From a virus, in the IMG/VR virus record IMGVR_UViG_3300023177_000095, positions 1 through 21,006 of that record: 21,006 bases of DNA, one strand, 5' to 3'. The first letter of the stretch is position 1. Each line of letters opens with the position of its first letter. The notes under the pieces were generated by a model. The model had not been told where the DNA came from and ran no database searches. It saw only the letters and a program-made list of their open reading frames with translations. Of the stretch, positions 1,657 to 19,695 are shown one piece after another. The translations under genes and the position numbers were made by a program.

Positions 1657-4600
1657 TTAATATCCTGTGATCTTTAAATTAACTTCCCCAGAAATTTTAG
1701 TATCAGAAATATCAAGCAAATCAATATGAAACCCCGTTTTGCTTTCACCCGAAACAATAGGAACTATTGCTTTAGTTGCACCTTTTATGGTAGCTTGAAC
1801 AACAGGAGCTACACGCAGATTGTATCCATAATTAGCTAAAATTACATCTGTTCCTGTCTCTCCAGACACATGAAAATTATTTAATTCAAACTCTACATCA
1901 GGAACATCACCAGCTATATAAAAATGCTGTAATTCAAATAAACCTGTAGAAGTAGGCAGTTTAACTCTAAACTCAGCTTTTAGATAACGGAAGACTTCTT
2001 GATCTATCCCGAAATATTCTCCAGAGGCAGAATAAGTAATATCATCACTACTGTATTGGTAATACATTTTAGTTTCGGGTATCATAGTAACATGATCATC
2101 CGTATCTGAGGGATAAGTTAAATCTGTTCTATCCGGATAACTTAAATCTGTAGCACTAGGATCCGAAGCATCAAAAACGTTGGATAATCTTATTCCTATA
2201 GTTCCCTCTTGCTCAAAGTCAACACCATTAGATAAATAAGAAGCCCAGTCTGTATAACCATACTGAACAACAACAGCAGGAATTTCTCCACTGTAAGACA
2301 TATGGGTAAAAGTTCCATCAGGACCTCCTAATTTAGTTATTTCATCTTGAACAACTATAATATTAATGGAATCATCTATTCCACTTAAAGTTAAATCAGC
2401 ACTAGCAGCAGTACTGGAATAAAGATTTGAGGAATCAATAGCTTTGATTAGAAAACGAAAAGTACCATCCATTTCGGCTTTCCAAGTCCACTTATCCTTG
2501 GAAATCCCTGTAACTAAAATTGTAGATGTTTCCCAACTAGCTCCTTTTCTTATTTCATACCCCCATAAATCACCGTCCTCAATATGTGTCCATTTAAAAC
2601 TAACAAATTGTCCATCTTGAATAGCCGCAAATCCTGTAACATTAGAAGGCGGATCTAATTTACCTTGAGTTAAAATTTCAGACCAAGGGGCATCAGTTAA
2701 AGCCGTTTTCTTGTTTAAAACATTTACAGTCACAATGGAAATAATATAATTCCATCCTGTTTGTACACCCCTTATTCTGAATCTACCACTTTTATCCGTA
2801 CCTGCAAAAATAGGGTTGCTAACATCGGCTATATCAGTAGTATAAAATGGAGAAGATTGTCTGTACCATATTTCAACATGGTCGAAAAAACTATTTTCGG
2901 GTACTGAATAATAGACATCAATACAATCTACTAATGTGCCATCCGAACTTTTTATAATCAATTCATCTAATTTTATATTTTCTACATCAGGAAGAGGATC
3001 TAATGTTGAATATTCTAAGGTAGTAATTACTGGAGTTTCATCATCTACAGAATAAAGGGAGTGATTGTATTCTATGCCAGATATGGTACATTTAAAATCT
3101 TGTGACTTTGTTATACCTACAACTCTAAAAGGTTTTGCTTCAGTATCAGTTTCCCCAAATGCAAAAGGATCATACTTTTGAGGAAGTGTAGTAAAAGGTG
3201 AGGTAAGTGTCAAAACACTTGTAGTACCCGGCTCTGTAAGAACTTGCCTTTCTACTACAGTATTATCATATAACCTAATCAATATAGAATAATAAGTATC
3301 ATAAGTCATGGTTACTTCTTGATCTAAAGTCACAGTAGAAGTGGTAGCACTTATTATTCTACCCCCATAACCCCATTGAGGTACATCATGTTGAACTAGT
3401 ACCACATCACCAACAGTACAAGCTATGGCATCTACATCAACATCAAAAGTAATTGCCCTGGTTAAGTGTTGATTGTAAAGTAACCTTAATTTGGCTATTC
3501 TGTAAGCTTCCGATTGTTTGGTTATTCCTATAAGTTGTAATAAAACTTTATTGCTATCATTACCTATCTCATCATTATAAACATTAAAGGTTTCCCTTTG
3601 GTAATCATTTTCGGAATTGAGGTATTCCACTTCCAATTCTGATGTTCTATCTTCCATAGGTAGGAATACCTCTTGAAAAGTATCCATGTAAATATTGGCT
3701 ACGGAAAATAACTGGGAAGGATTTGTAGGTTTATCAACAAAAACAGAATATTTAGTACCTGTAGCTACAATCATGGCCCTACTCATTTCACAGACCTTCA
3801 TGACTGCATCCCACATTGTAGTTAAGGCATCAAACCCTCCGTTAAAAGTGAATCTACTTTCAGTACCCCCCTTACCATCCGGAACAGGAGTATCACAATA
3901 AAGAGCCCATTCATAAAAGGCATCAGTATCTATGTATACAGGATCAAATCCATCATATCTGATCACATTCAAATCGTTATCAAAAACAGGCTGAGTTAAA
4001 ATATCATAAGCTACCCAAGCAGGGTTGTTGGAGAAAATTACTGCCCAACTTATTCCATCATAAACCCTGATCAATGCTCCCTGCACTATACACGAAAAAT
4101 CAAATGATCCTGATATTTGTCCAGTTGCTAAAGCCTTAACTCCTACTAATACTTGTCTTGGATATTGAAAATCATCATAAATTATTTCTGATATTGAGGA
4201 CACATACATAACATCCCCATATTTAGAACTGGTTTGTTCTGCGGAGGTTTTCGATATTTTTATCTGATATTGACCTTTGCTAGGAACAGAAAATTTCACA
4301 ACTTTAGTTATAGCCATAGATTTACAATCTGTATAACTACCACTTGCATAACTAACCCAAGTAGTATCCCCTACTTTCCTAGCATCAACTTGAAACCCTA
4401 CAGAATGATAATTCATATCTCCATAATCATTATCAACTGAAAATAACCCTCTAGGGAATATAATCTTTACTTCCAAAGCATCAAAATAATCCCCTTGTGT
4501 AGTATAAGTATAAGAACTACCTCCTTCAACTTGAATAGACATAGAATATTCAACTTTAGTATCATTGAAATTCTCAATCATAGGTTGATCCATGCTACCT

Positions 4601-5766
4601 AAAACATCTTCCACAATTATATTATCATACTTGGTATAATCTTGATCATTTATCTTTATATCACTTATACCATATATAGGACCTAATCCTAAATGAATCA
4701 AAACATTCAAATAATTGGAGTCAGGAGTTCCTGGGTATCCCCCTACCAATTCTGAAACTGTCTCACATTCTTCTATCCGTGCAGGATACCCGCCCACTAC
4801 ATTTAAGATATAACCAGCGGCATTATAATTAGATGTAGCTGCATTTAACGCAAGAAGAGCCGCATTTGTTTCAACTAAAGCAAGTTGCCAAATGTTCCGG
4901 AGTACCTCATTAAACCCGCCCCCTGACATACTATAAGGATCATATGAATAACTATCGAAATAAGCTTTGTAGGCTGCATCAGATATGGCTTTCTTATTCT
5001 CATAATTAGCTAAAGCTTCACTTCTTACTGTATTGAGCCTATAATATTCAGTTTCTTCTTCTCTCGGACCTCCTCCCTCACCACAATAAGTAGTAAACAC
5101 TCTCTGGGCAGCTACCCCTGCCGCACCTGGCTGACTTTCTATATTACCTGATATGATATTACCATGTACTTTGCTATATCCATAAAATCTAGGAATCATT
5201 CCTCCCTCTTGTTGAGTAGTCTGAGGACTCCAAGAAAAAACTTGAGAAGTATCATAACCTTCTCCAACTCCCCCCATAGAACTGCCATAGCCCCCTGGTG
5301 CAGAAGGGGGAGTATAACTAATAGGTTTAGGGGGACCAATATTAAACCCTCCGATAGAAGGTAATTTGTATTCTATAGGCAATAACATATCAACTAAAAA
5401 ATTACCAACTATACTAATACCCATACCTATTAACGCAGCAGCCAAAGGTCCCACACCCCACCATTGACCAGAATAAGCCATTACTACTATAGCTACAACC
5501 GCTACAACCAATTTCAATACCATGTTCCAATCATTATTACTACTACCGAATACAGGAACAAAGGTTATACAATCTTTATCTCTCACTTTATAAAGATCAA
5601 GAGAATCATTGGGCAATATTTTCCCATTTAAAGAAGTAACTATATTTACATCTCTAGGAATAAGTTCATCTCTCAATTCCTTAACAGATTGTCCTCTCAT
5701 AGGAATTGATCGAGTTTCCTTATTTCTTCTATTCAAAGGATCATTTACTTTAACTATCTGAAGCAT
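1657..5766 (-). CDS. Lambda gpJ-like central tail tip / host specificity protein
   Basis: A 1369-residue protein closing the M-L-K-J-like tail-tip series. Residues 1-75 look like a small beta-grasp domain (SLNGKILPND, DCITFVPVFG). Residues about 82-130 are strongly hydrophobic with glycines. Both resemble the two halves of lambda gpI, apparently fused here. From about 176 the gpJ hallmark appears (QVFSWSP, then IPRFYGYSKVHGNIISG). An Ala- and Tyr-rich helical insertion, about 229-350, precedes GLGPIYGISDIKINDQDY. The Phage-tail_3-like region follows at roughly 640-760 (MWDAVMKVCEMSRAMI). Two fibronectin III-like domains lie near 910-1020 and 1036-1130 (PPSNVTGFAAIQDGQFVSFKW). The C-terminal 230 residues are beta-rich and probably distal. 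The start overlaps the upstream peptidase gene by 17 bases and has only a weak SD. The protein probably forms the tip trimer that contacts the host. Confidence 0.9.
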   Translation of the reverse strand: MLQIVKVNDPLNRRNKETRSIPMRGQSVKELRDELIPRDVNIVTSLNGKILPNDSLDLYKVRDKDCITFVPVFGSSNNDWNMVLKLVVAVVAIVVMAYSGQWWGVGPLAAALIGMGISIVGNFLVDMLLPIEYKLPSIGGFNIGPPKPISYTPPSAPGGYGSSMGGVGEGYDTSQVFSWSPQTTQQEGGMIPRFYGYSKVHGNIISGNIESQPGAAGVAAQRVFTTYCGEGGGPREEETEYYRLNTVRSEALANYENKKAISDAAYKAYFDSYSYDPYSMSGGGFNEVLRNIWQLALVETNAALLALNAATSNYNAAGYILNVVGGYPARIEECETVSELVGGYPGTPDSNYLNVLIHLGLGPIYGISDIKINDQDYTKYDNIIVEDVLGSMDQPMIENFNDTKVEYSMSIQVEGGSSYTYTTQGDYFDALEVKIIFPRGLFSVDNDYGDMNYHSVGFQVDARKVGDTTWVSYASGSYTDCKSMAITKVVKFSVPSKGQYQIKISKTSAEQTSSKYGDVMYVSSISEIIYDDFQYPRQVLVGVKALATGQISGSFDFSCIVQGALIRVYDGISWAVIFSNNPAWVAYDILTQPVFDNDLNVIRYDGFDPVYIDTDAFYEWALYCDTPVPDGKGGTESRFTFNGGFDALTTMWDAVMKVCEMSRAMIVATGTKYSVFVDKPTNPSQLFSVANIYMDTFQEVFLPMEDRTSELEVEYLNSENDYQRETFNVYNDEIGNDSNKVLLQLIGITKQSEAYRIAKLRLLYNQHLTRAITFDVDVDAIACTVGDVVLVQHDVPQWGYGGRIISATTSTVTLDQEVTMTYDTYYSILIRLYDNTVVERQVLTEPGTTSVLTLTSPFTTLPQKYDPFAFGETDTEAKPFRVVGITKSQDFKCTISGIEYNHSLYSVDDETPVITTLEYSTLDPLPDVENIKLDELIIKSSDGTLVDCIDVYYSVPENSFFDHVEIWYRQSSPFYTTDIADVSNPIFAGTDKSGRFRIRGVQTGWNYIISIVTVNVLNKKTALTDAPWSEILTQGKLDPPSNVTGFAAIQDGQFVSFKWTHIEDGDLWGYEIRKGASWETSTILVTGISKDKWTWKAEMDGTFRFLIKAIDSSNLYSSTAASADLTLSGIDDSINIIVVQDEITKLGGPDGTFTHMSYSGEIPAVVVQYGYTDWASYLSNGVDFEQEGTIGIRLSNVFDASDPSATDLSYPDRTDLTYPSDTDDHVTMIPETKMYYQYSSDDITYSASGEYFGIDQEVFRYLKAEFRVKLPTSTGLFELQHFYIAGDVPDVEFELNNFHVSGETGTDVILANYGYNLRVAPVVQATIKGATKAIVPIVSGESKTGFHIDLLDISDTKISGEVNLKITGY
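2111..2151. repeat. Short 24-bp-period direct repeat inside the gpJ-like gene
   Basis: Two 17-base copies (2111-2127 and 2135-2151) differ at one position and are spaced with a 24-base period. They encode the near-duplicate peptide TDLSYPDRTDLTYPSD in the C-terminal part of the tip protein. It looks like a small in-frame duplication in a surface loop or linker. Confidence 0.7.
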
Positions 5767-6133
5767 ATTTATAAAACCCGCTTATTCTATTCTTCCAAAG
5801 TAGATGATTAAGTTTCTCTATAGCCACTTGCTTCTTTTCAATACAATGAATAAAACTATTTAGATCAGGTAAAATTACCCCGATATGAGTAGAATATAAC
5901 CCTTTAACCTTAAACGTTACAGCACAAAAAGGTTCTGGCTTGTCAATCTGTATCCAATCAATTTTCTTTTCTTCTACTACAGCATTTATCAAACCTTTAT
6001 TATCAGGAGAGATAAGATCCTCTAAAATAATTCCTCTTCTCCTATAAACCTCCATCAATAAACCATAACAATCAAAAGTATTAGGTCCTCTAGCTCCATA
6101 TTCAAATTGTTTATTAAGCAAATCTAATAGCAT
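5750..6133 (-). CDS. NlpC/P60 family cysteine peptidase, tail tip (gpK-like)
   Basis: A 127-residue protein, the size of a single NlpC/P60 domain. The catalytic layout is visible: Cys22 in NTFDCYGLLMEVYRRRG, His83 in STHIGVILPD, and a third polar residue, probably His96, in FIHCIE. Members of this family cut peptidoglycan stem peptides. In lambda-type tails the homologous gpK acts in tail-tip assembly or in local cell-wall opening. Lambda gpK also has an N-terminal JAMM/MPN domain, which is missing here. The gene overlaps the L-like gene by 20 bases and the J-like gene by 17, matching the lambda order L-K-(I)-J. The AGGA SD lies about 10 bases upstream. Confidence 0.86.
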   Translation of the reverse strand: MLLDLLNKQFEYGARGPNTFDCYGLLMEVYRRRGIILEDLISPDNKGLINAVVEEKKIDWIQIDKPEPFCAVTFKVKGLYSTHIGVILPDLNSFIHCIEKKQVAIEKLNHLLWKNRISGFYKYASDS

Positions 6134-6725
6134 TACTTTTCAATCCTGGAAATCCGCCAAATCTTTTAGTATTACCTAATGTAGTACAATACTCAAATGT
6201 TTTATTACAAGTAGCAGAACTGCCTGAATAAGCACATTCAGCACCTTTAAATATCCAATTACAATGACCTGCTATGTATCGAATCAAAGGGAATCTTCTT
6301 CTAAACGGAGAAGGCGCTCCAAGAGTAAATACGGCTTTTGAAGCTGACATAATTACTGAAATAACCACAAAAGACATATCCAAAGATGAAGTATCCTCAG
6401 ACAAATAATCGGAATTTACTACATGAATATCTACAGTAGAGCCTACTGCTCCATCCAAAGGTTCCAAATAAGCTTGGATTATTCTAGTAACATTAGATAA
6501 GGTAAGTTGCAAAGTAGGCAACTCTCCTTTTCCAGAATCAGAAACAGAATCTATATCAAAGGGAAACCTACTATAAGTAGTTCCATTCCACTCAATATCA
6601 ATAACATTCCTTACAAGATTTAAAACTACACCACTGGTAAGAGTCACATCTAACAAAAGTAACCAAGAACTAGTAGAGGTGAGTTTATTCTTTTCTATTG
6701 CCAATACAGCGGGTAATGTTTTCAT
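6114..6725 (-). CDS. Minor tail protein L-like, probable [4Fe-4S] tail-tip protein
   Basis: A 203-residue protein matching the lambda gpL family in length, gene position and C-terminal cysteine pattern. Four cysteines fall at 155, 164, 173 and 180 (HCNWIFKGAEC, then ATCNKTFEYC) in the region where lambda gpL binds an iron-sulfur cluster. The N-terminal region has the expected beta-rich opening (WLLLLDVTL, WNGTTYSRFPFDI). The ATG overlaps the upstream M-like stop as ATGA, so translation is probably coupled. The SD is weak. In lambda, gpL helps form the hub between the tail tube and the central fibre. The role here is by family. Cluster binding is inferred from the cysteines only. Confidence 0.88.
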   Translation of the reverse strand: MKTLPAVLAIEKNKLTSTSSWLLLLDVTLTSGVVLNLVRNVIDIEWNGTTYSRFPFDIDSVSDSGKGELPTLQLTLSNVTRIIQAYLEPLDGAVGSTVDIHVVNSDYLSEDTSSLDMSFVVISVIMSASKAVFTLGAPSPFRRRFPLIRYIAGHCNWIFKGAECAYSGSSATCNKTFEYCTTLGNTKRFGGFPGLKSNAIRFA

Positions 6726-7069
6726 ACTTGCATAAACCCCATTTCAGCTTGATAATAATGGGCAGTTGCCATGTAAGTTATGGTGGGTACAGGATCAAAT
6801 CTTACTATATAAGTTGTGCTATCATCAGGATTAGTCCAATTAAAAGATTCAGATCCTCCCCTTACCGCGGTTATAAATGCCCTAAGCAAAGCCACATCAG
6901 AAGTATTTAAATTTTTATAAACCACGTTAGACCATTTCTTTCTATCTGAGGTGAATCTAGGTCTAGTTTGAACATACCCACTCTCAAAATCACTTTTAAT
7001 AGTAGAATCTAAAACATCCTCTTTTATTTCCCATTCAGGAGGTCTACTTAATGTAGGAAAATCAGACAT
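6722..7069 (-). CDS. Minor tail protein M-like (tail-tip)
   Basis: A 115-residue protein with the features of the lambda gpM family: RPPEW near the start, 'TRPRFTSDRKKWSNVVYKNL', an LLRAFI helix, then SFNWTNPDDSTTYIVRF. The last motif (F-W-NP-D, then Y-VRF) is the most recognisable part. In siphoviruses with this gene set the protein forms a ring at the tube end, next to the tape-measure C-terminus. The GGAG SD is 9 bases before the ATG, and the start overlaps the tape measure stop by 8 bases. No catalytic residues are evident or expected. Confidence 0.87.
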   Translation of the reverse strand: MSDFPTLSRPPEWEIKEDVLDSTIKSDFESGYVQTRPRFTSDRKKWSNVVYKNLNTSDVALLRAFITAVRGGSESFNWTNPDDSTTYIVRFDPVPTITYMATAHYYQAEMGFMQV

Positions 7070-10000
7070 TTGCTATAGCTCCTCTCAAAACTCCACCTTG
7101 TCTAATATCTTCAAGGATAACACTTATTACATACTTCTTACCATCAAACTGAGTTTTACCTTGTTTAGCAGTTACAGGTTGACTAGATTTATTTTCTAAA
7201 TTTATCTGAACATTGACATCCCTTTGTCCTAAAGCTTTCATCTGACCTGGGGTAAAAACTCCTTCATTTTTTCTAATTACAGACAATCTCTCATCTGGAC
7301 CTACCCCTGAATGGTATCTAGGAAGCATATCAATATATTTTTTAGGAATGATGTCTTGACCCATCACCCCTCCTTTATGAATCCGATAATACTCTCCTCC
7401 TATGCCTCCTCCTATGCCTCCTCCTACACTTCCTCCTGCACTTCCTCCTGCACTTCCTCCTGAACTTCCAAAATATGTACCGACTATTTGTGCAAGATAT
7501 TTTAGAAAGACTTTTACAGTTTCCTGTGCTATAAATTGGGTCATCATTTTAAGTAATTCATCCAAAAATTTCCTAAATATATCTAATAACGATGTTTGTC
7601 CCTCCGCTACCCGTTTTTGAGATTCCACAATCTGTTTATTAGCATCTAATTGGGCTTCCTGTGCTGCAATAGCCGCTATTTGTGTATCAATAATGGCCTG
7701 CTGTTTTCTCTTCTCCGATTCAGAAAGAGAGTTATTACTACTAATTAAATCCCTTTGATTTTGTAAGGCTTCTTTCTGATTAGCTAAGGTTTGTTTGTCA
7801 AGTTCTATCTGTTTTAATTTATCTTCAGCCTTGTTAATATCAGATTCTTTGCTTATATTAAAGGTACCTTTACCCATAGAATAAAGCATATCGGATAAAG
7901 CCCCGCTTAAAGAATCTCCTACGCCTTTAACTATATCAACAATACCTTCAGCAGTAGTTTTAGCCTCTTCTAACCACCTTCTTAATCCTTCCCTTACAGT
8001 TCCCATTAACCCTTCAGTCCTGTAAATTTCTTCCAAATCAGTAGCTAACTTCCTATGAATCCCCCTCACTTTATTTGCATAGTCTTCTTCTAATGCTATT
8101 TGCTTATTTTTATTTTCCTGAACCTTTTCTAAAAAGTCATTTTGAATTTTTTCCTGTTCTTCTACATTCTCTCCTGCTTTTGCCATTTTAGCTTGAGAAA
8201 GTGCATAATAACTAATTAATTCCCTATCTAATAATTCCTTTTTCTTATTAAATAATTCCGTTTCCCTTCTTACCTGATCCTCATAATAATCTCTTGAAGA
8301 TACTTCTTTTCTTCTAAATTTAAAATCAGCTAATTCTTCCTCAGCATCTATTTGTCTTCTTAAACTCTCGGCTTCTCCTTCTCTAACAATTCTATTCAGA
8401 TTAGCCTCAGTGGTCATAGCCTCAATAATTCTATTTATATTTTCAACCCTATTCTTAGTAACATCATCATCCAAATCTATTCTTTGTTTATTTTCAAACT
8501 TCAACCTTTCAGTTACTATCTTCTCCATATCAGCCTTTTCCCTAGCTGCTGATACTTCTAATCTTCTCTTCCTTTCCAAAGGATCAGTAACCTTTTCTAA
8601 TTCCTCTCTCTCCCTTGCGTAATTATTCCTTATCTCATAAAACTCTTCCAACAATTCACTAAAGAAAATATCTCTACCCCTTTCTCTTAAATCCTTTTTC
8701 TTTTCTTGATATTCCTCTTCAGAGATTGTCCTGTTTTTGTAAGAATTTTCTAGAAGTCTTTCCTCAGTGGCATAATCATTTTTAACTTGTTCTAATCTAG
8801 CCCTACTTTCTGCCTTTTGTGCTGATCTTAAATCAGCAAGATAAGATTTGTATTTTTCTTTATCTACAGAGGGGGGAGGTTCCTCTCCTCCTCCTTTTTT
8901 CATTTTCTTATTGAATTCTTCCTCTTTTTTCTTTAATGTTATTTGTTGTTCTAAAAAACTTATTTTCTTTTTAACTATATCCAACGCACGGGCATCATAT
9001 CCTGCTTCCACTCCTGTTTGAGGCTTACCTGTAATAGTAGATGTAGGTCTACCCTCACTTTTAAATTTATCAAACTTTGAAAATTTCTCATAAGTATTGA
9101 CATACTCTTTTAAATTATTAAGCTCCTTCTCTTGTTCTTTCAAAGAAGCACCATACATTTTTACTTCAAATTTACCTAACTCTGAATCATAATCTTCCTT
9201 CATAGCATTAAGTAAAGACATAGCAGAAGCAGCAGCAAATAAAGCAGCAGTTAATGGATTTATTCTAGCTATTAAAGTAGTAAATCCAGCAGCGAGAGAA
9301 GGAATAACAGATAGGCCTAATACTCTAAAAGAAGTAATTGTAACATCCAATATGGCACTTAATCCTGTAAATCTAAATATCAATAAACCTAATCCTACCA
9401 ACAATCTTCCCATTATCACAGTAGCTAATATTTCCACCAACCTAGTATGTTCTGCTAACCAAGAAGTGACCTTTAAAATAACCCCTAAAAACACCTCAAG
9501 TATAGTAACTACAGGTTTCAAAGCTGTCCATATATTTTTAAAAGCGTTTACCAAAGAGGCAGTAATATTATAAGCAAATCTTCCTATAGACCCTAACTTA
9601 TCTAATTTATCTGCAAAAGTTCCTGTAGGATCAATGGCAACTAGAACACCCCTAGCAAAATCAATTAATCTACCTGTAGCCTTTTGAAGATCGGGACCTA
9701 AATACTCATTAACAGCTTTACCCACTTCTTTCAATAAATTTAAAAATATTATCCATTGTTGAGAAGGGGGCATAGCCATAATAGCTGAAGCCGCAGTAAG
9801 ACCTCCAGCAGATTCAGCTATATCCCTAGTTAATTGTTTATAAACGGTACCATAAGTCAGCAACAATTTTACAAGTTCTCTAACTTCTCCTCTCCCCATA
9901 CCTTTTGTAAGTACGTTAAACCATCCCATTACGATTTCACTATTTTCATTTACAGCTTTACTTAATCCCTCCATTATAACATCTAACTGAGCAAATAAAG

Positions 10001-10913
10001 TTTTCTTAGGATCAATTTTGATCTGCAATACATCCAATATCTTTTTAAACTTATCTGTATTCATAGCTTGTAACATTGTAGATGTTACTCTAGAAACAGC
10101 AGCAATATTTCCACCTAAATTAGACATAGCTACAGACATAGCTAATAATTGATCTAAAGAACCTCCAAGCATTTTACTAATAGGGCCCATATACTGTAAA
10201 ACTTTAGCAAACGATTCAGGTCTAGCAATACCAACAGCTTGTGCTCTCAATATTTTCTCAAAAATTAAGAGCATTTTTTCAGCATCAGTATTAACTTCCG
10301 TCAAAGTATCCTTAAAAGTATTAAAAGCACCAACAGTAGCAACAGCCCATTGATTAATATCTATTTCCTTAAAAGAAACTCTTAACTTGGCAACACCATC
10401 TACCATGCCCTGAAGTACACCATAAGGCAATCCTGCTCCAGCGAACGCTTGCATTGATTTACTTAAATCTTCCAAAGTAACAGGAAACTCAGTGGTAGCT
10501 CTTCTCATTAAAATAAGAAGACCGTCTATTTGTTTTTTCATATCTGAAGTTACTTGGCCCGAAGTAGCACCCCATCTTAAAAGACCTGCTCTAGCTTCTT
10601 CAATCTGATTAACATAAGCGAGCACATCTTTAAAAGATTGTATAGGTAATTGAACTCCTGCAAAAAGAGCAAATTTAGCTCCATACCATCTGGCTTGAAC
10701 TGCAAGGAGTTTCTCCATATCAGTTATAATATTCTTTAAACTCCAATCATAGGTAATAAAACCCCTTCTACTTTCTTCAGTAGATTTGGTTACCTTTTTC
10801 ATTGATTCATTTACTTGATCAAATTTAGATTTAATATCTTTGGCAATCCTGTCAAAGGTACCATCTATCTTTGAAGTAAATAAAATACCAAGTGATAAAT
10901 CTCGGCTAGGCAT
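7062..10913 (-). CDS. Tape measure protein
   Basis: A 1283-residue protein, the longest gene after the chaperone pair, in the canonical position. The N-terminal 60 residues are helical (DRIAKDIKSKFDQVNESMKK). Residues about 60-400 resemble the TP901-type tape measure core (ASGQVTSDMKKQIDGL, MSNLGGNIAAVSRVTSTMLQ). A hydrophobic zone at about 470-575 (IMGRLLVGLGLLIFRF) could be the membrane-active segment. A long charged coiled-coil region spans about 640-1080. A Gly/Ser linker near 1150-1173 precedes a C-terminal block like lambda gpH (HKGGVMG, RYHSGVGPDE, NEGVFTPGQMKALG). No lysozyme or peptidase motif is seen. The SD AGGA is 7 bases upstream. At about 0.15 nm per residue, an inferred rule, the tail would be near 190 nm. 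Confidence 0.94.
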   Translation of the reverse strand: MPSRDLSLGILFTSKIDGTFDRIAKDIKSKFDQVNESMKKVTKSTEESRRGFITYDWSLKNIITDMEKLLAVQARWYGAKFALFAGVQLPIQSFKDVLAYVNQIEEARAGLLRWGATSGQVTSDMKKQIDGLLILMRRATTEFPVTLEDLSKSMQAFAGAGLPYGVLQGMVDGVAKLRVSFKEIDINQWAVATVGAFNTFKDTLTEVNTDAEKMLLIFEKILRAQAVGIARPESFAKVLQYMGPISKMLGGSLDQLLAMSVAMSNLGGNIAAVSRVTSTMLQAMNTDKFKKILDVLQIKIDPKKTLFAQLDVIMEGLSKAVNENSEIVMGWFNVLTKGMGRGEVRELVKLLLTYGTVYKQLTRDIAESAGGLTAASAIMAMPPSQQWIIFLNLLKEVGKAVNEYLGPDLQKATGRLIDFARGVLVAIDPTGTFADKLDKLGSIGRFAYNITASLVNAFKNIWTALKPVVTILEVFLGVILKVTSWLAEHTRLVEILATVIMGRLLVGLGLLIFRFTGLSAILDVTITSFRVLGLSVIPSLAAGFTTLIARINPLTAALFAAASAMSLLNAMKEDYDSELGKFEVKMYGASLKEQEKELNNLKEYVNTYEKFSKFDKFKSEGRPTSTITGKPQTGVEAGYDARALDIVKKKISFLEQQITLKKKEEEFNKKMKKGGGEEPPPSVDKEKYKSYLADLRSAQKAESRARLEQVKNDYATEERLLENSYKNRTISEEEYQEKKKDLRERGRDIFFSELLEEFYEIRNNYAREREELEKVTDPLERKRRLEVSAAREKADMEKIVTERLKFENKQRIDLDDDVTKNRVENINRIIEAMTTEANLNRIVREGEAESLRRQIDAEEELADFKFRRKEVSSRDYYEDQVRRETELFNKKKELLDRELISYYALSQAKMAKAGENVEEQEKIQNDFLEKVQENKNKQIALEEDYANKVRGIHRKLATDLEEIYRTEGLMGTVREGLRRWLEEAKTTAEGIVDIVKGVGDSLSGALSDMLYSMGKGTFNISKESDINKAEDKLKQIELDKQTLANQKEALQNQRDLISSNNSLSESEKRKQQAIIDTQIAAIAAQEAQLDANKQIVESQKRVAEGQTSLLDIFRKFLDELLKMMTQFIAQETVKVFLKYLAQIVGTYFGSSGGSAGGSAGGSVGGGIGGGIGGEYYRIHKGGVMGQDIIPKKYIDMLPRYHSGVGPDERLSVIRKNEGVFTPGQMKALGQRDVNVQINLENKSSQPVTAKQGKTQFDGKKYVISVILEDIRQGGVLRGAIANV
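7396..7467. repeat. Six 12-bp tandem repeats encoding a Gly-rich linker in the tape measure gene
   Basis: Six consecutive 12-base units share the core cctcct on the plus strand (for example cctcctatgcct twice, cctcctgcactt twice). Each encodes a four-residue block of the type GGxG, GSxG or GSAG in the tape measure protein. The array is in frame, so unit gain or loss would change linker length by four residues without breaking the gene. Confidence 0.9.
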
Positions 10914-11286
10914 CTGTTAATCCTTCTTTATTGGCCCATTTTTTATAATGCCCCATCATTTTGTCTGTCAAAGTCTGCTTTTCCTCTTCACTCATATTGT
11001 TATACTCTGATGGGTCCTTAAATAACATCCGGTTTTCTTCTTCCCTCTTCTTAGATTCCTTTTCTAAATCTACCCCAAACAGTGAAGCTCCTAACTTATA
11101 ATAATCTAATTTTTGTTCCTCAATCCCCTTAAACAAAATACTAATCTGCCCTACTGTAAGTCCTCCTTCTCTATAGGACTTACTGAAGACATCTTCAAGT
11201 CGGTATTGGGAATAGTGTCTAAGGATACTGGTGATAACTGTGCTGGCAGAAACACTTTCGCCAGTTTTTTCAGGAGGTCCTTCGTT
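10906..11286 (-). CDS. Tail assembly chaperone, -1 frameshift extension (gpT-like part of gpG-T)
   Basis: This is the second frame of the tail assembly chaperone pair. It is open from 11307 to the stop at 10906 and lies in the -1 frame relative to the gpG-like gene. Slippage on the A-run at 11286-11292 would join residues 1-113 of the upstream protein to 126 residues read from here (NEGPPEKTGESV, then LTVGQISILFKGIEEQK), giving about 239 residues. The only internal start for the distal part is a TTG at 11136 without a convincing SD. The frame also stays open and protein-like well upstream of that TTG, as expected for translation by frameshift. The C-terminus is charged and helical (EKESKKREEENRML). 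In lambda the rare GT form bridges the tape measure and the tail tube subunits. Confidence 0.87.
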   Translation of the reverse strand, partial: NEGPPEKTGESVSASTVITSILRHYSQYRLEDVFSKSYREGGLTVGQISILFKGIEEQKLDYYKLGASLFGVDLEKESKKREEENRMLFKDPSEYNNMSEEEKQTLTDKMMGHYKKWANKEGLTDA

Positions 11287-11624
11287 TTTTTTTCTAAGGA
11301 AGCATAATTAGCTTCAAAAACTATTTCAATAATATCTAATAATTGATCATTGGTAATATCAGTTAAAACTTCCTCGTTTTCATCTGATATAAAAGTCATT
11401 ATTTTACCAATATTGTCTGAAATAGTATCTTTTATTACAGATAAAATTTTAATATTATCTTCATCTCTTACAGATTGTACCTCAAAAATAGCTGAGGATA
11501 TGTTGTTCGTGAGTTTAGACTGATCTGCAATAGATAAAGGATAGATTTTTATTTTCCTAAGTTTTCTTATTCCGATAACAGCTTCCTTGATTTGAGGATT
11601 CAATAATTCCAAATCATTGTCCAT
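11151..11624 (-). CDS. Tail assembly chaperone, gpG-like
   Basis: A 157-residue protein lying between the major tail gene and the tape measure gene, where almost all siphoviruses encode the tail assembly chaperone. It opens with a strong SD (AAGGAG, 7 bases before ATG). The sequence is helical and acidic (RDEDNIKILSVIKDTISDNI, ENEEVLTDITNDQLLDIIEI) with no enzyme motif. Its zero-frame end (about 114-157) is replaced when ribosomes slip at codons 112-113 (AAA AAA). By family, the short form coats the tape measure and the frameshifted form recruits tail tube subunits. Neither remains in the virion. Confidence 0.88.
   Translation of the reverse strand: MDNDLELLNPQIKEAVIGIRKLRKIKIYPLSIADQSKLTNNISSAIFEVQSVRDEDNIKILSVIKDTISDNIGKIMTFISDENEEVLTDITNDQLLDIIEIVFEANYASLEKKTKDLLKKLAKVFLPAQLSPVSLDTIPNTDLKMSSVSPIEKEDLQ
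11243..11264 (-). other. Possible RNA stem-loop downstream of the slip site
   Basis: On the transcribed strand CTGGC plus GAAA can pair with TTTC plus GCCAG across a three-base loop (GTG), with one unpaired T on the 3' arm. That gives nine base pairs. It starts 21 bases after the slippery heptamer, farther than the usual 5-9 bases, so a role in stimulating the frameshift is uncertain. Confidence 0.4.
11286..11292 (-). promoter_or_regulatory. Slippery heptamer A-AAA-AAA for -1 ribosomal frameshifting
   Basis: Nine consecutive A on the transcribed strand (11285-11293) are read in the gpG-like frame as GAA AAA AAA ACG. The heptamer A AAA AAA allows both P-site and A-site lysine tRNAs to re-pair perfectly one base back. 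The next codon in the new frame is AAC, and that frame stays open to 10906. This matches the X-XXY-YYZ rule and the conserved position of frameshifts in phage tail chaperone genes. Confidence 0.85.
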
Positions 11625-11693: not shown

Positions 11694-12275
11694 TTAGGTA
11701 AAAATGATACGACCCATAGGCTTTGCATCCCAAACGGCACTGCCTCCTGAAACAGCACTATCAGCCCTTTTAGCTTCAAATACTATAGGAACGGCCGCAG
11801 CATCTTCAGTCTTAAGGTCTACTTCAATTCCTGAAGCAACTTGGGCCCTAGGAAACACAATAGTCATGTAGTTAGAGCCACTAGGAAAGGTATAAACTGC
11901 CTCCATTCTGAGAAAAGCGGGGGTAGTTAAATTGCCCAGTGCAATCTCACCAGAATGGACAGAAGTATAACCTGAAGTAGCATCAATGCCTCGGGTAAAA
12001 GCCAAGTTCATCGGGGTTATTTCTTTGAATGAACATTCTAGAGAAGCGGCCTCTCTTAATGGAATAGTAGTATCTTCCATAAGAGGGAATCCCGATTCTA
12101 ATTTCCAAAAGTCTACTTTAGAAGTAAACTTTGTATTAGCCAAAGCTCCTATAGAATTAGTAGAAGATAAGGCGGGATGGATATTAGAAATGTTGGAATC
12201 GGCAGCACCAACTCTAACCTGAGCCAATCCTAAAGCAACGGTAGTGGTATCCTTAGTTAATGGTCCTGTAGGCAT
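11694..12275 (-). CDS. Major tail protein (tail tube)
   Basis: A 193-residue protein immediately before the chaperone pair, with the strongest ribosome-binding site in the window. The composition suits a tube protein: beta-rich, many Ala, Ser, Thr and Gly, no membrane segment. Recognisable pieces include MPTGPLTKDTTTVALGLAQV at the N-terminus and a C-terminal strand set (VDLKTEDAAAVPIVFEAKRA, then GRIIFT). The latter resembles the 'e..fk...d..G.i.f' end of several siphovirus tube families. It is the right size for a single-domain tube subunit without an Ig-like extension. A stable hairpin follows the stop, consistent with the need for high mRNA output. No specific named relative can be given from the sequence alone. 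Confidence 0.85.
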   Translation of the reverse strand: MPTGPLTKDTTTVALGLAQVRVGAADSNISNIHPALSSTNSIGALANTKFTSKVDFWKLESGFPLMEDTTIPLREAASLECSFKEITPMNLAFTRGIDATSGYTSVHSGEIALGNLTTPAFLRMEAVYTFPSGSNYMTIVFPRAQVASGIEVDLKTEDAAAVPIVFEAKRADSAVSGGSAVWDAKPMGRIIFT

Positions 12276-13244: not shown

Positions 13245-13780
13245 GCCCATTTTCCTGCTATGAATTGTAAAGCTCTTTCCCCTAAAATAGGAGATTCCCT
13301 AAAAGCAAACTGATTAATAGAATGTGTAAACACGGGTCTTTTAGGGTGAATTCCCCCTTTTCTAGAACGATAATCTCCGCCGTATTCTAAAGTATAAGCA
13401 TATTTGGCAATCTCATAGAGTCTAGTACCTGAATATCTAGGACTTGCCCCTATAATCCCATTGGGAATACCTGCCATATATCCATCACTAACCTTAAAAC
13501 TGGATAGAGCAGCAATCAAAGCTCCTCCCAATTTCCAAAAATCTGATCCATATCCTTGTTCTGCTTTCCATTTACCATATCTCTCTTCATATCTTTGACC
13601 TCTAGCACTCCATCTACTCACCCAATATTGAGATATTATATCTTGCCTAACTCTAGTAACAAATTGCCGTGACATCTCTCTAGGCAATTCATCATTTTGG
13701 TACCTAGTAGCTACTTGTACTTTTCCTATAGCATTGATAATTCTTCGCCTAGTCAATTCATCTATTTTTATTTCAATCAT
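13241..13780 (-). CDS. HK97 gp10-like / virion morphogenesis protein
   Basis: A 179-residue protein with GAGG 4 bases before the ATG and an ATGA overlap with the HNH gene upstream. The C-terminal half shows the family pattern of gp10-like neck or tail-completion proteins: YAYTLEYGGDYRSRKGGIHPKRPVFTHS in outline (quoted parts YAYTLEYGG and HPKRPVF), meaning an aromatic/EYGG turn followed by a 'PaRPf' motif and a final helix. The N-terminal half is basic and helical (TRRRIINAIGKV, REMSRQFVTRVRQDIISQYW). These proteins join the finished head to the tail or complete the tail end. Its place as first gene of the tail module fits. Exact assignment within the superfamily is uncertain. Confidence 0.72.
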   Translation of the reverse strand: MIEIKIDELTRRRIINAIGKVQVATRYQNDELPREMSRQFVTRVRQDIISQYWVSRWSARGQRYEERYGKWKAEQGYGSDFWKLGGALIAALSSFKVSDGYMAGIPNGIIGASPRYSGTRLYEIAKYAYTLEYGGDYRSRKGGIHPKRPVFTHSINQFAFRESPILGERALQFIAGKWA

Positions 13781-14130
13781 AATACCTCATTCAATACTGC
13801 AAAATCCTTATGTAATTCTTTAGCTTTTATATTATAAGCCAAAGCAGCTTCTTCTTTTGTAGAGAATATTCCTAAATAAAAATAAGCTCTATTACAACAT
13901 ATTTGAGATATCCACTTATCTTTATAAGGGCTAACTCCTTTATATCCAGAAATGTTATTACTTTGTACATTTATATTTCTATTATTTTCTGAAATATTAC
14001 AGATCCTTAGATTATCTCTCCTATTATCCAATCTATCTCTATTTTTATGGTCAATATACATCCCCATAGGTACATCTAAAATAAATCTTGATAAAAGTAT
14101 TTTTTTTACAAGAACTAAAAACATACCCAC
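13777..14130 (-). CDS. HNH-AP2 homing-type endonuclease, C-terminal piece
   Basis: This frame carries the catalytic and DNA-binding parts of a phage HNH endonuclease. The motif IDHKNRDRLDNRRDNLRIC contains the first His of the HNH site and the following Asn-rich element. An AP2 DNA-binding domain follows (SGYKGVSPYKDKWISQI, then YFYLGIFSTKEEAALAYN, KELHKDFAVLNEVL). The coordinates begin at an internal ATG at 14130 that has no clear SD. Real similarity begins only at about 14107 (KKILLSRFILDVP). The N-terminal part lies in another frame (14051-14383). Removing one A from the eight-A run at 14100-14107 would fuse the two into about 201 residues. It is likely a frameshifted gene, unless slippage restores it. 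Confidence 0.82.
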   Translation of the reverse strand: MGMFLVLVKKILLSRFILDVPMGMYIDHKNRDRLDNRRDNLRICNISENNRNINVQSNNISGYKGVSPYKDKWISQICCNRAYFYLGIFSTKEEAALAYNIKAKELHKDFAVLNEVL

Positions 14131-14383
14131 TACTTAATAATCCCCATCTTATGTCTTTTATTTTACCATAATCAACAAAATCAAAAACAGTTTCCCCTAT
14201 TACTTCACTTTTTACATTATAAAGTTCCATTCTACATAAAGAATCCTCAATATAAATCTTATTCCTACTTCTTACAGTTCTTTCTTTTATCTTACCATAA
14301 TGATATATGTGCATGTAATGTATTCTACAAAATCCCTTACTACAACTCTTATTAAAACATCCTGATACAGAACAATATTTCAT
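14051..14383 (-). CDS. HNH-AP2 homing-type endonuclease, N-terminal piece
   Basis: The N-terminal frame of the same endonuclease, with a genuine start: ATG at 14383 preceded by AGGTG. It opens with a small zinc-finger pattern common in phage HNH proteins (MKYCSVSGCFNKSCSKGFCR, then IHYMHIYHYG). A linker of the usual type follows (EVIGETVFDFVDYGKIKDIRW, then SSGYVFSSCKK). After the A-run at 14100-14107 the frame loses family resemblance (NTFIKIYFRCTYGDVY) and stops at 14051, without catalytic residues. The break may be a real mutation, an assembly or sequencing error in the homopolymer, or a slip-regulated gene. On its own this piece should be inactive as a nuclease. Confidence 0.78.
   Translation of the reverse strand: MKYCSVSGCFNKSCSKGFCRIHYMHIYHYGKIKERTVRSRNKIYIEDSLCRMELYNVKSEVIGETVFDFVDYGKIKDIRWGLLSSGYVFSSCKKNTFIKIYFRCTYGDVY
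14100..14107 (-). other. Eight-A homopolymer at the HNH frame break
   Basis: The transcribed strand has TGT, then eight A, then TACT. With eight A the N-terminal frame reads TGT AAA AAA AAT. With seven it would read TGT AAA AAA ATA CTT and continue directly into the HNH-AP2 frame (SSCKK, ILLSRF). One surplus A therefore accounts for the whole split. Confidence 0.88.
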
Positions 14384-14389
14384 AATATT

Positions 14390-14779
14390 TCACACCTGTA
14401 AAACAAATCCATTTAAAATAGGTATACCCTTTAAAGATTCTATATCAACAGGATAAGCCATGTTATCTCTCATCCTAATATCTGACCTGTACATCCTTGG
14501 AGAAATACTATACTTTAATTTACCATACTCCTTCCTCAATTTGTAAAAAGAAAAATAATCAAATTCTTCATTCTCTAATAGAGATGGAAAAGCTGCTAAT
14601 AGTTGTGGAGAAAAATACTCATTAGCATACATAAAAACTTTCCAATCAGTCTTAATAGTAACATTAAAATATCTGCTATCTTCCATTCTCATGTACCTAC
14701 CTGGAACTTTATCAAAAGATTCTACTAGTTTTAAATCATCCACCCCTTCTATAGGTACAATTATCAAGGTCACTTTCAT
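14390..14779 (-). CDS. Short GT2-like protein with degenerate DxD, probably non-catalytic
   Basis: A 129-residue protein, ATGA-coupled to the methyltransferase upstream, with a weak SD. Residues 46-58 (WKVFMYANEYFSP) align by eye with the metal-binding strand of GT2 glycosyltransferases. The window's own GT2 gene at 19696-20433 has FIMDFDERMSP at that place. Here the DxD acids are replaced (MYANE against MDFDE). The following parts also have GT2 flavour: SPQLLAAFPSLLEN and YSISPRMYRSDIRMRDN. It has lost most of the N-terminal nucleotide-binding half of a normal GT2 (around 240-300 residues). It may be a remnant, a partner subunit, or a glycan-binding derivative. The family link is inference from short motifs. 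Confidence 0.62.
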   Translation of the reverse strand: MKVTLIIVPIEGVDDLKLVESFDKVPGRYMRMEDSRYFNVTIKTDWKVFMYANEYFSPQLLAAFPSLLENEEFDYFSFYKLRKEYGKLKYSISPRMYRSDIRMRDNMAYPVDIESLKGIPILNGFVLQV

Positions 14780-15486
14780 AATAAATTTTCATACACCTTA
14801 TCACATAAAGATTTTAGAAACTGAAGGGAATCTGACATATCAGGATAATCAAAAAAACTGTCATCATAATGAACAAAAGGGATAGAATCTTTCCACCAAA
14901 AACTTAATTCCCCATCAGCATATCCACCTAAATCAGAAATATTATCAACCTTTAGACTCATAGAATCTAAAACGCTGAACTTGGGAAATAAAAATAAAGT
15001 ATGAGTATCTGTGTCAAAAACCCAGCGATGGGGAATAAATCCTCTAGTAAGTTGCTCCAGTTCTTTCTGTTGCATTTCTTTATAATAAATCCCTTTCATC
15101 AATTCTATTACCCCATTAGGAAGACATATAAAGCCTTCTTTCCCGATTTTAGGTAAGAAATCTAAAATCAAATGAGGTTTTCCTAAATGTTCCAGACAAT
15201 GAGAACATATTACAAAATCAAAAGGGGCTTCTTTTAATAACTGTTCTTGAATTTTAAAATCCTCTAAATCCCCTACAATAGAAACAGAACCCTTGACTTT
15301 TTTTAGATTATGGGCATCAGATTCCCTAGAATGAACATCTTGAATATCACAATAATGGGTAACATAATCTCCTGCCCAAGGACCCAAAGCTCCCCCAACA
15401 TCTAAAACCTTATCAAAATTATTCTTGGATAGGTAATCTAAGACTTTATCTTTATGATAACCTATTTTATTGATTTGATGAATCAT
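14776..15486 (-). CDS. Class I SAM-dependent methyltransferase
   Basis: A 236-residue protein with the Rossmann-type methyltransferase signature: motif I VLDVGGALGPWAGDY at 27-41, an acidic strand end (HYCDIQDV, 44-51), SIVGDLEDF near 69-77, and the motif IV/post-IV region FDFVICSHCLEHLGKPHLIL at about 89-108. This layout is typical of the Methyltransf_11/23 group acting on small molecules or sugars. The C-terminal third (about 140-236) is divergent and aromatic-rich and may shape the acceptor site. The ATG overlaps the preceding methyltransferase stop (ATGA). With two other methyltransferases and three glycosyltransferases nearby, O-methylation of a sugar is the simplest idea. The substrate cannot be read from sequence. 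Confidence 0.84.
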   Translation of the reverse strand: MIHQINKIGYHKDKVLDYLSKNNFDKVLDVGGALGPWAGDYVTHYCDIQDVHSRESDAHNLKKVKGSVSIVGDLEDFKIQEQLLKEAPFDFVICSHCLEHLGKPHLILDFLPKIGKEGFICLPNGVIELMKGIYYKEMQQKELEQLTRGFIPHRWVFDTDTHTLFLFPKFSVLDSMSLKVDNISDLGGYADGELSFWWKDSIPFVHYDDSFFDYPDMSDSLQFLKSLCDKVYENLL

Positions 15487-16028
15487 ATTTTTCTCAACAC
15501 CATGTCAAAAGTTTCGCTAGTCCACGGAATGGTACTGTGCTGTACTATTTCAAGATCAGGGATTTCTTTAACTATATTTCTCATAAAATTAAAACCCATC
15601 TTGACTTTATGAGAAATATTTCCTCCATCCTCCACTTCAGGGTATCTTCCTCCTTCAACATCAGGTAAAAGCAAAACAATGTATCCCCCTGAAACAAGAA
15701 ATTCCGTCCATTTTATTAAACACCCTCTAATATCTTCCTCACTATCCAAATCTTCCAAAGCATGACTACTGAATACAAAGTTAAACTCTGAGAAGAAATT
15801 TAGATTTTCAAAATGGGTATTCATAAATATAGAGCCAGGACTTATTTGTTCCTCACATAAAGGTTGCGGGGACATATCAACATAATAGATACAGGTAGGT
15901 TTTAACAAAGGACAACTTCCACATCCCATATCTATTCCTCTACCTTGTAGAAATTGTTTTACATATTCCACATTTTTTTCAAATAGAGGTCTTACTGTAT
16001 TATTAACTTCCTCTACTGAATTAGGCAT
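15483..16028 (-). CDS. Small class I SAM-dependent methyltransferase
   Basis: A 181-residue methyltransferase with AGGAGG 4 bases before its ATG. Motif I is GIDMGCGSCPLLKP (31-44), then a strand ending YYVDMSPQPLC (48-58). The motif IV region is FNFVFSSHALEDLDSEEDI (82-100), followed by WTEFLVSGGYIVLLLPD. The 'SSHALEDL' helix and 'GGYIVLLLPD' strand are typical of Methyltransf_11-type enzymes. It is shorter than usual and lacks a large substrate-binding extension, ending soon after the last strands (ETFDMVLRKI). The gene lies between a GT4 glycosyltransferase and another methyltransferase in the transferase module. Probable role is methyl transfer in the same glycan pathway (inference). Confidence 0.83.
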   Translation of the reverse strand: MPNSVEEVNNTVRPLFEKNVEYVKQFLQGRGIDMGCGSCPLLKPTCIYYVDMSPQPLCEEQISPGSIFMNTHFENLNFFSEFNFVFSSHALEDLDSEEDIRGCLIKWTEFLVSGGYIVLLLPDVEGGRYPEVEDGGNISHKVKMGFNFMRNIVKEIPDLEIVQHSTIPWTSETFDMVLRKI

Positions 16029-16036
16029 ACTTCCTC

Positions 16037-17086
16037 CTACAATTCACCGGTGATGTTGTAAACCTTACCTCTTTCAATAACTTTCTGAAAATATTTCAAA
16101 TGATTGTTTGCCATAATCTCAGAAGTGAACCTATCTTTAAAAAGATTATAACAAGCCATACGGTCAATATTATCAATCTGTTTGTAAAAATCTAAAGCCT
16201 TGTCAATAGAGAGTTCCCTATCCTGTTCTGAATAAGTATCATATTCATTGATGAACCCATGAACTCCATGACTTATGATTTCTCCCCCTTCAAAATTCAT
16301 AGCCGAAGGTTCATCTTTTTTACCCCATCCTATAATAGGAACACCGCAAGCTAAGGCTTCGATATTGACAATTCCAAACATTTCATGATAACGATCCCAA
16401 TTTGTACTTATAAAAGCTTTGGCATTTTTTAACACCTTAAACTTAATTTCATCATCTACAGCCCTCAACCATATGATATTTTTATTATCTACATGAGGGA
16501 AAATTTTATCTTGCGAATAGGGATAATGATAAGCTGGTCCCATAAGAACAAGTTTAACTCCTGCTCTCTTTGCAAAATCTATAGCTATGTCAGGAGCTTT
16601 CCCCATATCCATTCTACCAGTCCAAACAACATAATCCTTTGCTTCTTCAGGTAACGGTCTATCAGGGATACCGTAATAAATAACCGTGCTTTGGTTAGCA
16701 TTTAGACTATTCAGTTTCTTAGAATAAGCTATTACATTTTCATAAAACCTTCCGAAACTGAAATAAGGTTCTAGACTGTAGTTCCAATCCTCTCTTATTT
16801 CGTGTGATATAAATCCAGAAGCCATGTAACTATGAATATAATCAAACTTACCATTCTTACCTTCATAATCTTTAACAGCTTCCAAATAAAGATCCTTATT
16901 ATCTGACCAAGGAATAGGAATTTGAATGTATTCAAATCCGGGCAAGTTACACCCCCCTACAGAAAATACAACACACTCATGTCCCTTCTTTTTAAACTCT
17001 TGAATTAGATACCAAATCTCCCTTTCAGCACCGTAATAACAACCCTCACCGAAAGGATGAGCATACCCTAGAATAGCAATTTTCAT
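16037..17086 (-). CDS. GT4-family (GT-B fold) glycosyltransferase
   Basis: A 349-residue glycosyltransferase with the GT-B arrangement. The N-terminal acceptor domain opens MKIAILGYAHPFGEGCYYGA and contains EREIWYLIQEFKKKGHE. The C-terminal donor domain starts near 145, with DYVVWTGRMDMGKAPDIAID (161-180) and KLVLMGP (178-184 region). The key E-x7-E motif is present: Glu235 and Glu243 in HEMFGIVNIEALACGVPII. These features match the retaining GT4 family, which uses nucleotide sugars to extend polysaccharide, LPS or protein glycans. The AGGAGG SD lies 8 bases upstream and overlaps the stop of the carbamoyltransferase. There is no membrane segment, so it is probably cytosolic. Donor and acceptor are unknown. 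Confidence 0.9.
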   Translation of the reverse strand: MKIAILGYAHPFGEGCYYGAEREIWYLIQEFKKKGHECVVFSVGGCNLPGFEYIQIPIPWSDNKDLYLEAVKDYEGKNGKFDYIHSYMASGFISHEIREDWNYSLEPYFSFGRFYENVIAYSKKLNSLNANQSTVIYYGIPDRPLPEEAKDYVVWTGRMDMGKAPDIAIDFAKRAGVKLVLMGPAYHYPYSQDKIFPHVDNKNIIWLRAVDDEIKFKVLKNAKAFISTNWDRYHEMFGIVNIEALACGVPIIGWGKKDEPSAMNFEGGEIISHGVHGFINEYDTYSEQDRELSIDKALDFYKQIDNIDRMACYNLFKDRFTSEIMANNHLKYFQKVIERGKVYNITGEL

Positions 17087-17098
17087 AAGATTGTCCTC

Positions 17099-18691
17099 CT
17101 ACCTTTCATGAATTTTTCCATCTAGTACCATAATATCTACAGTACCTAGATTAAAGAAATTGACAGCATCTTGCGTAGATTCTACCATAGGTTCCCCATT
17201 ACCATTAAAACTGGTATTTAACAAAATGGGAACTCCGGTAATCTCATTAAATTCCTCAACTAATCTGTTATAGTGGAAATTGGTCTCCTCATTTACTGTT
17301 TGTATCCTAGCAGACCCATCCATATGATTTATTTCAGGAATAATATCAGGTCTTTTAACAGGTGCAGTAAAAAGCATGAAAGGACTTTTCACATCAAAAT
17401 CAAACCAATTGTTTAGTTCCTTCTCTAGTATAACAGGGGCCAAAGGTCTGAACCATTCTCTATTCTTTATCTTTGAATTTATCCTTTCTCTGTTATCATG
17501 GTTTCTTGGATCAGCTAGAATTGATCTGTTTCCCAAAGCTCTAGGACCAAACTCAGCCCTCCCATTACACCATGCAACTACCTTTCCTTCAGCTATCTTA
17601 CGAGCAATATGACCATAATTTATATCCCCTTCCATAGGTTTATCTGGACCTAAAAAACATATTTCAGAATCAGAATACTCAGGTCTTTCTTCTCCTAAAA
17701 TATGATGGGCAACATAAAGAGCCGATCCTACTGCTCCCCCATCATCCCCACATCCAGGAAATAAATGCACATTTCGGAATTGTGTCTCTTTCAATATCCT
17801 TGAATTAGTTACACAATTCAACATTGATCCCCCACTGAGGCATAAATTTTTTGTAGTCATAGGACCAATATTTCTTACACAATGCAAAATAGATTGTTCA
17901 AATAGTAACTGAATGGTTGCGGCTATATCTCTGCCCTTTTCAAAATCAAATTGGCACCAAGGAAATACTTCAGGAGATCCATGCAAATCGGTCCATAGAT
18001 TAAGATACCATTGATGATAATCTTGATCATCAGGATAAAAGCAAGCCTTTACATAGGAATCTAGATTGTCCATTACTCTAGGAATCACTTTTCCATATGC
18101 CGCAACTGCCATAGTAGAACCTGCTTTAAATAATTGATGACCTACCCCAAGATATTCAGTAAAATATCCATAAGCCACACCGATCATTAATCCAGGACAA
18201 TGTAAAGAAGTTAATTTCTTTCCTTTACCATAAGCTATTAAGGAATTATTCTTATTGTTTGCCCCACTGGCATCTAAAGAAAAAGAATAAGCTTCCTCAA
18301 AAGGACTTGTGTAAAAAGCTGAGGCAGCATGACAAAGCTGATGTCCTATGTAATATCCTTTTACGTTTTTACCTCTAAAATTAATATCTAATTCCAGACA
18401 TTCATTGTCATAAACCCTGTTCCAAAGACAGTCTATTTTCTCATTACCTTGAAAGACTTCCATTTGATGGAAACAAAAATCTTTATTCCAATCAGACAGT
18501 CCTATATAATCAATGTCATTATGTGTGATTCCAAGATAGCCGAACAAATAATCTAAATCTTTATTAGTAACCCCATGGGAAAACTTATGTCTAGAAAGTC
18601 TTTCAGAACTAATGGCCCCGATCAACTTTCCATCTCTTATTACACAAACAGAGCCATGATGTCCATAATGTAAACCAAGGACAATACTCAT
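17099..18691 (-). CDS. NodU/CmcH-family O-carbamoyltransferase
   Basis: A 530-residue enzyme of the family that makes carbamoyl-adenylate from carbamoyl phosphate and ATP, then transfers the carbamoyl group to a hydroxyl, often of a sugar. The N-terminal Kae1-like domain has MSIVLGLHYGHHGSVCVIRD, the metal-ligand region GHQLCHAASAF (His117, His121) and SLDASG (Asp140). It also has LSGGSMLNCVTN (285-296) and GCGDDGGAVGSA (313-324). The C-terminal YrdC-like domain (about 361-530) shows GRAEFGPRALGNRSILADPR, REWFRPLAPV and LLNTSFNGNGEP. All expected blocks are present and the length is near normal, so it should be active. The start is an ATGA junction with the zinc-ribbon gene. By context the acceptor is probably a glycan made by the neighbouring transferases (inference). 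Confidence 0.95.
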   Translation of the reverse strand: MSIVLGLHYGHHGSVCVIRDGKLIGAISSERLSRHKFSHGVTNKDLDYLFGYLGITHNDIDYIGLSDWNKDFCFHQMEVFQGNEKIDCLWNRVYDNECLELDINFRGKNVKGYYIGHQLCHAASAFYTSPFEEAYSFSLDASGANNKNNSLIAYGKGKKLTSLHCPGLMIGVAYGYFTEYLGVGHQLFKAGSTMAVAAYGKVIPRVMDNLDSYVKACFYPDDQDYHQWYLNLWTDLHGSPEVFPWCQFDFEKGRDIAATIQLLFEQSILHCVRNIGPMTTKNLCLSGGSMLNCVTNSRILKETQFRNVHLFPGCGDDGGAVGSALYVAHHILGEERPEYSDSEICFLGPDKPMEGDINYGHIARKIAEGKVVAWCNGRAEFGPRALGNRSILADPRNHDNRERINSKIKNREWFRPLAPVILEKELNNWFDFDVKSPFMLFTAPVKRPDIIPEINHMDGSARIQTVNEETNFHYNRLVEEFNEITGVPILLNTSFNGNGEPMVESTQDAVNFFNLGTVDIMVLDGKIHER

Positions 18692-19688: not shown

Positions 19689-19695
19689 TTTACTC

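Follow-up and report, generated by a model that had tools for sequence, protein, structure and literature searches.

Does a run of nine A's in a viral tail gene give rise to two proteins through a programmed −1 frameshift? The run occurs in IMG/VR virus record IMGVR_UViG_3300023177_000095, whose complete 21,006 bases were analysed and are termed the window here; the record itself is probably a fragment. Its tail genes lie on the minus strand in lambda order: the tube gene, a pair of overlapping frames termed G and T, the tape-measure gene, and then homologues of M, L, K and J (Table 1). A first-pass annotation, made from the letters of the window alone, had proposed that a gpG-like frame reads the run as GAA AAA AAA ACG, that a protein-like −1 frame stays open from 11307 to 10906 with an unsupported TTG as its sole internal start, and that a programmed slip between the two yields a 239-residue tail assembly chaperone. 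On the evidence presented below, the locus very probably encodes a lambda-type G/GT tail assembly chaperone pair made by programmed −1 frameshift.

Table 1. Features of the tail module in the window. L236 and L285 are homologous loci; percentages are identities to the window.
Feature	Position	Strand	Evidence
Major tail (tube) protein, upstream neighbour of G	11694..12275	minus	Weak matches to major tail protein families; position; L236 74%
gpG-like tail assembly chaperone, 0-frame ORF, 157 aa	11151..11624	minus	Between tube and tape-measure genes; marginal phrog_1442 match; L236 56%, L285 33%
A_AAA_AAA slippery heptamer within nine-A run 11293–11285	11286..11292	minus	In phase with G; coding change-point; L236 and L285 sites
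T frame (−1), 126 aa post-slip, C-terminal part of gpGT	10906..11286	minus	L236 65%, L285 42%; no well-supported start
Overlap: 44 gpG codons past the slip plus stop, also first part of T	11151..11285	minus	Two-frame constraint, window versus L236
Tape-measure protein, downstream neighbour of T	7062..10913	minus	phrog_1272 and phrog_28 tape measure; Pfam PhageMin_Tail
Lambda-like M, L, K, J genes downstream, completing the module	1657..7069	minus	Pfam Phage_min_tail, Phage_tail_L, NLPC_P60, FNIII-A_GpJ, Phage-tail_3

A slippery heptamer where the coding frame changes

The G frame starts at an ATG behind the ribosome-binding site AAGGAG. The minus-strand sequence contains exactly nine A's and reads GAA AAA AAA ACG in this frame, as the first-pass annotation had stated; 11294 lies 330 nt from 11624, in frame, so that the heptamer A_AAA_AAA is in phase. 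This X_XXY_YYZ heptamer of the upstream ORF leads into the −1 ORF, which the ORF reading likewise finds open from 11307 to its stop, and the start of the tape-measure gene overlaps the end of T. A slip at the heptamer would join 113 G residues to 126 T residues, and this computation returns the predicted product of 239 residues. The fusion junction reads ...SLEKK-NEGPPEK..., with a predicted junction peptide of SLEKKNEGPPEK.

The nine-A run and the heptamer by themselves are weak evidence, no more than chance would provide. Approximately 1.5 A9/T9 runs are expected per window under a Markov model of the window, and an in-phase A_AAA_AAN appears in the last 60 codons of 23% of codon-shuffled G genes. 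With a codon model trained on the window's other genes, coding is best fitted by a change from the 0 frame to the −1 frame located exactly at 11292–11286. In the overlap past the slip, the 0 frame scores −0.089, below real genes (5th percentile 0.11), and the −1 frame scores +0.128, inside the range of real genes. Because the coding switch falls at the heptamer, and because two homologues and the surrounding family have the same layout (see below), the frameshift is judged to be real beyond chance; the coding switch and the homologues thus support the original proposal of a programmed slip.

In E. coli, the V_VVA_AAR heptamers, of which A_AAA_AAA is one, rank with the most efficient, and a stimulator alone does not suffice for frameshifting (PMC4066793). 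The first-pass suggestion that the level of frameshifting may differ from that in lambda is a reasonable one. No stimulatory Shine-Dalgarno sequence was found upstream of the slip, and no convincing stimulatory RNA structure was found downstream: a 130 nt downstream fold was no better than shuffles, and the covariation term of a consensus fold computed from three sequences was unfavourable. The RNA structure CUGGCGAAAGUGUUUCUGCCAG (−7.8 kcal/mol), about 20 nt past the slip, was rejected as a stimulator since it is not kept in L236, and a 9 bp hairpin near the G stop was rejected since it lies about 105 nt away. The latter, a perfect hairpin, belongs to an inverted repeat (11151–11188, minus strand) that covers a Shine-Dalgarno-like AAGGAGG, whose GGAGG corresponds to a Gly-Gly codon pair conserved in L236 and L285.

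Conservation in two homologues

Two true homologues of the window's G/T pair were identified, L236 and L285, the second of which is part of an 86 kb contig. L236 repeats the nine-A run in the window's phase, and L285 carries A_AAA_AAC, a six-A site, where the homologous codon lies (TCA AAA AAC). The heptamer, the −1 ORF and the overlap are kept in both, and in both the conservation of the −1 frame extends well ahead of any possible start, with the homologous heptamer giving access to that frame. The first-pass annotation had called for an alignment of relatives; this alignment upholds the heptamer and the −1 frame, but the nine-A length is shared with L236 only.

Known families offer little more. 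The full G ORF gave a marginal match to the tail assembly chaperone family phrog_1442 (E 0.014), and its 113-residue G part matched no tail-chaperone family. AlphaFold models predicted without homologous sequences were not good enough to search for similar folds, and searches of solved structures returned chance-level matches only. Since family searches hardly recognise G and T, automatic annotation would miss or split them.

Related tail modules

Direct searches of phage records and viral contigs with G or T gave no match, and the N-terminal part of the tape measure gave none as a query. Relatives were reached via gpL and the tail-tip gene J, and loci were gathered from viral contigs, bacterial genomes and phage records, starting at J; some alignments were too variable for scanning. 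Profile searches comparing G and T with the first, more distant relatives revealed no homology above decoys. In a census of 82 non-redundant cases, the window included and a few doubtful ones filtered out, a G-like ORF overlaps a −1 ORF that reaches the tape measure and carries an in-phase heptamer. This heptamer is A_AAA_AAC in 38 cases, G_GGA_AAC in 18, A_AAA_AAG in 12, G_GGA_AAG in 8 and A_AAA_AAA in 3 (including the window), with 3 others. A start with a Shine-Dalgarno sequence that keeps at least 80% of T is present in only two of the 82 related T frames, and several G proteins of the surveyed modules match named tail-assembly-chaperone families. The last survey comprised 199 loci, 82 of which received no call, including loci with a possibly misplaced tape measure or a non-canonical site. 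In this survey the 0 frame ends no more than 12 codons past the slip in 69 of 92 cases (median 1).

Several individual loci deserve mention. In a prophage-like Rickettsiales locus (L147, 1837–2708), the G/T pair carries A_AAA_AAG and overlaps by 49 codons, and the T frame there has a cysteine pattern resembling that of other T proteins. In L014 an ORF that by eye is HNH endonuclease-like (2451–3245) separates T from the tape-measure gene, to which it is usually adjacent; a T match noted there by eye was set aside because profile searches gave no homology above decoys. Achromobacter phage JWF (L006) has a seeming T_TTT_TTC site with a 43-codon overhang, which was dropped because the −1 frame in that stretch is rich in arginine and does not look like protein. 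Long overhangs at other T_TTT_TTN sites of the last survey were likewise not trusted.

An unusually long overlap of the two frames

Past the slip, the 0 frame runs on for 44 codons in the window, 44 in L236 and 42 in L285, and it would give gpG the tail peptide VFLPAQLSPVSLDTIPNTDLK. In published sets the overlap averages 26–36 nt (PMC10885494). The position of the 0-frame stop, 44 codons past the slip and far from the usual few, counts against a lambda-type pair, as do the negative searches for a stimulator and the at best marginal resemblance of G and T to known chaperone families. Among the surveyed modules, only L236, L285 and L147 have an overlap of similar length; given the comparable overlap of L147, long overlaps are rare but not unique.

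We compared synonymous differences between the window and L236 at codons where both encode the same amino acid, a test that rests essentially on this one sequence pair. For the T frame, 6 of 26 such codons differ within the overlap, compared with 27 of 44 downstream of it (Fisher p 0.002); for the G frame, the counts are 8 of 27 within the overlap and 32 of 61 ahead of it (p 0.04). The amino-acid identity of T between the window and L236 is 58% and 59% in its two parts, and the low synonymous change is therefore not merely that of a slowly changing stretch. For pairs with L285, the synonymous signal was not significant. When T was randomly recoded with synonymous codons, the 0 frame stayed open in less than 1% of trials for the window and L236 and in 9% for L285. 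Identical 0-frame residues number 27 of 44, versus at most 20 of 44 after recoding, a null that ignores shared ancestry.

By these comparisons, the overlap is constrained in both frames between the window and L236. Within its first 12 codons, T is identical at 2 of 12 residues and G is conservative (KDLLKKLAKVFLP / TEILKKIMKTFLP); at the later codons conservation is mainly for T. Thus, judging from these alignments, constraint looks to be divided within the overlap, with early codons kept for G and later ones for T. An RNA element could be an alternative cause of the reduced synonymous change, but no such element was found.

Other routes to the T frame

T might be made as a separate protein, started at the TTG at 11136 or by ribosomes that re-initiate past the G stop (11151), such that no frameshift is needed. 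This TTG (76 aa) is, as the first-pass annotation had it, the only start listed in the −1 frame, and it has no Shine-Dalgarno sequence at a normal distance; L236 carries an ATG at the matching codon, which likewise lacks a well-placed Shine-Dalgarno sequence. The G stop does lie near possible starts, and the Shine-Dalgarno-like AAGGAGG is found at 11168–11162. However, its GGAGG is about 25 nt from the TTG, which is too far, and it encodes the conserved Gly-Gly; moreover, the −1 frame is conserved and coding-like over about 35 codons ahead of any start. Neither L236 nor L285 proved to be a homologue with an intact start for T alone, which had been named as the finding that would speak against a frameshift. 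The second frame lacks an effective start, and we regard separate synthesis as very improbable; a short additional T product may exist but would not replace the fusion. It is scarcely credible that the true gene is a single ORF split by a sequencing error in the homopolymer or by gene decay. Homopolymers are error-prone, and the window's HNH gene is also split close to an A8 run, but an independent contig, L236, shows the nine-A run and both overlapping frames just as the window does, L285 carries another heptamer at that codon, and the 0-frame tail is itself constrained.

A different question is which polymerizing machine slips. RNA polymerase might add an extra A to part of the mRNA, from which ordinary translation would enter T. 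At the shift site the run has nine A's, enough for efficient slippage by bacterial RNA polymerase (PMC5009743; PMC1088944). The run in L236 is also exactly nine, and the run common to these two loci is the longest in the survey. Because an extra A in the mRNA would give an identical fusion, sequence cannot separate a transcriptional from a ribosomal slip; loss of one A would instead end the G protein four residues after EKK. Run length is not conserved in the homologues, however: the homologous site of L285 is a standard ribosomal heptamer with no more than six A's. Related modules mostly have six or seven A's, or G_GGA_AAN without a long run. For these reasons ribosomal slippage is likelier as the conserved mechanism, and we consider it quite unlikely that T is entered through transcriptional slippage, which is possible as an addition to the ribosomal slip in this phage.

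Relation to known systems and proposed mechanism

The window differs from phage lambda in its heptamer, A_AAA_AAA rather than the familiar G_GGA_AAG, in a 0 frame that closes 44 codons after the slip where lambda's closes after a few, and in G and T sequences that lack a clear match to known chaperone families. It resembles lambda gpG/gpGT (PMC5009743) in the placement of the pair between the tube and tape-measure genes, with G followed by T in the −1 frame, in its in-phase XXXYYYZ heptamer, in a T frame without a good start, and in conservation of these features across relatives. With the A_AAA_AAC/G modules (e.g. L013, L175, L012 and L031, and the true homologue L285) it shares gene order, the kind of heptamer at the G end, and a T in the −1 frame that ends at the tape measure; in contrast to the window, those modules nearly all have six or seven A's and mostly 0–12 0-frame codons after the slip. 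Thermus thermophilus dnaX, a case of transcriptional slippage (PMC5009743; PMC1088944), likewise has nine coding-strand A's and two products from one gene, but the window's site is also a standard ribosomal heptamer, and its run length is not conserved in L285.

In the proposed programmed −1 frameshift, most ribosomes would pass A_AAA_AAA without a slip, yielding gpG (157 aa). In a minority, the two lysine tRNAs on AAA AAA would shift back by one base and re-pair, and translation would proceed along the −1 frame, yielding gpGT (239 aa). In lambda, G binds the tape measure and T binds the tube protein (PMC5009743). By analogy, many gpG and few gpGT molecules would bind the tape-measure protein, and the T part would recruit tube protein. 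We infer the ribosomal nature of the slip, its level and the functions of the proteins.

A backward one-base slip on an A run is well known; what is new is a divergent lineage with an unusually long conserved two-frame stretch. With this locus, the G/GT frameshift gains a lineage whose proteins are barely detected by standard family searches. A tentative extension, which we hold possible but on balance doubtful, is that the 42–44-codon overlap is truly dual-coding, with a functional gpG tail, and that in this phage RNA polymerase slippage at A9 supplements the ribosomal slip and helps to set the ratio. If so, the slip would exchange the functional C-terminus of gpG for a different one, rather than simply appending T. 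With an overlap under constraint in both frames, and with homologues that differ between A9 and A6, the locus offers a compact natural system for studying whether the gpG tail past the slip has a function and how the two kinds of slippage, ribosomal and transcriptional, may divide a single site.

Other features of the window

A contig from a second record, IMGVR_UViG_3300028737_000046 (L004, 630–4736), encodes a protein J that is 100% identical to that of the window, with L and K partly so, and stops short of the G/T region; the identity of J indicates that it is the same virus assembled elsewhere. An HNH/AP2 homing-endonuclease-like gene (13777–14383, minus strand) is split into two overlapping ORFs, 14383–14051 and 14130–13777, whose frames meet near the A8 run at 14107–14100. 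This could be a decayed gene, a sequencing error or another slip site. Adjoining the structural genes (14776–20993, minus strand) is a run of genes for methyltransferases, glycosyltransferases of families 1, 2 and 9, and a carbamoyltransferase, which suggests sugar or surface modification.
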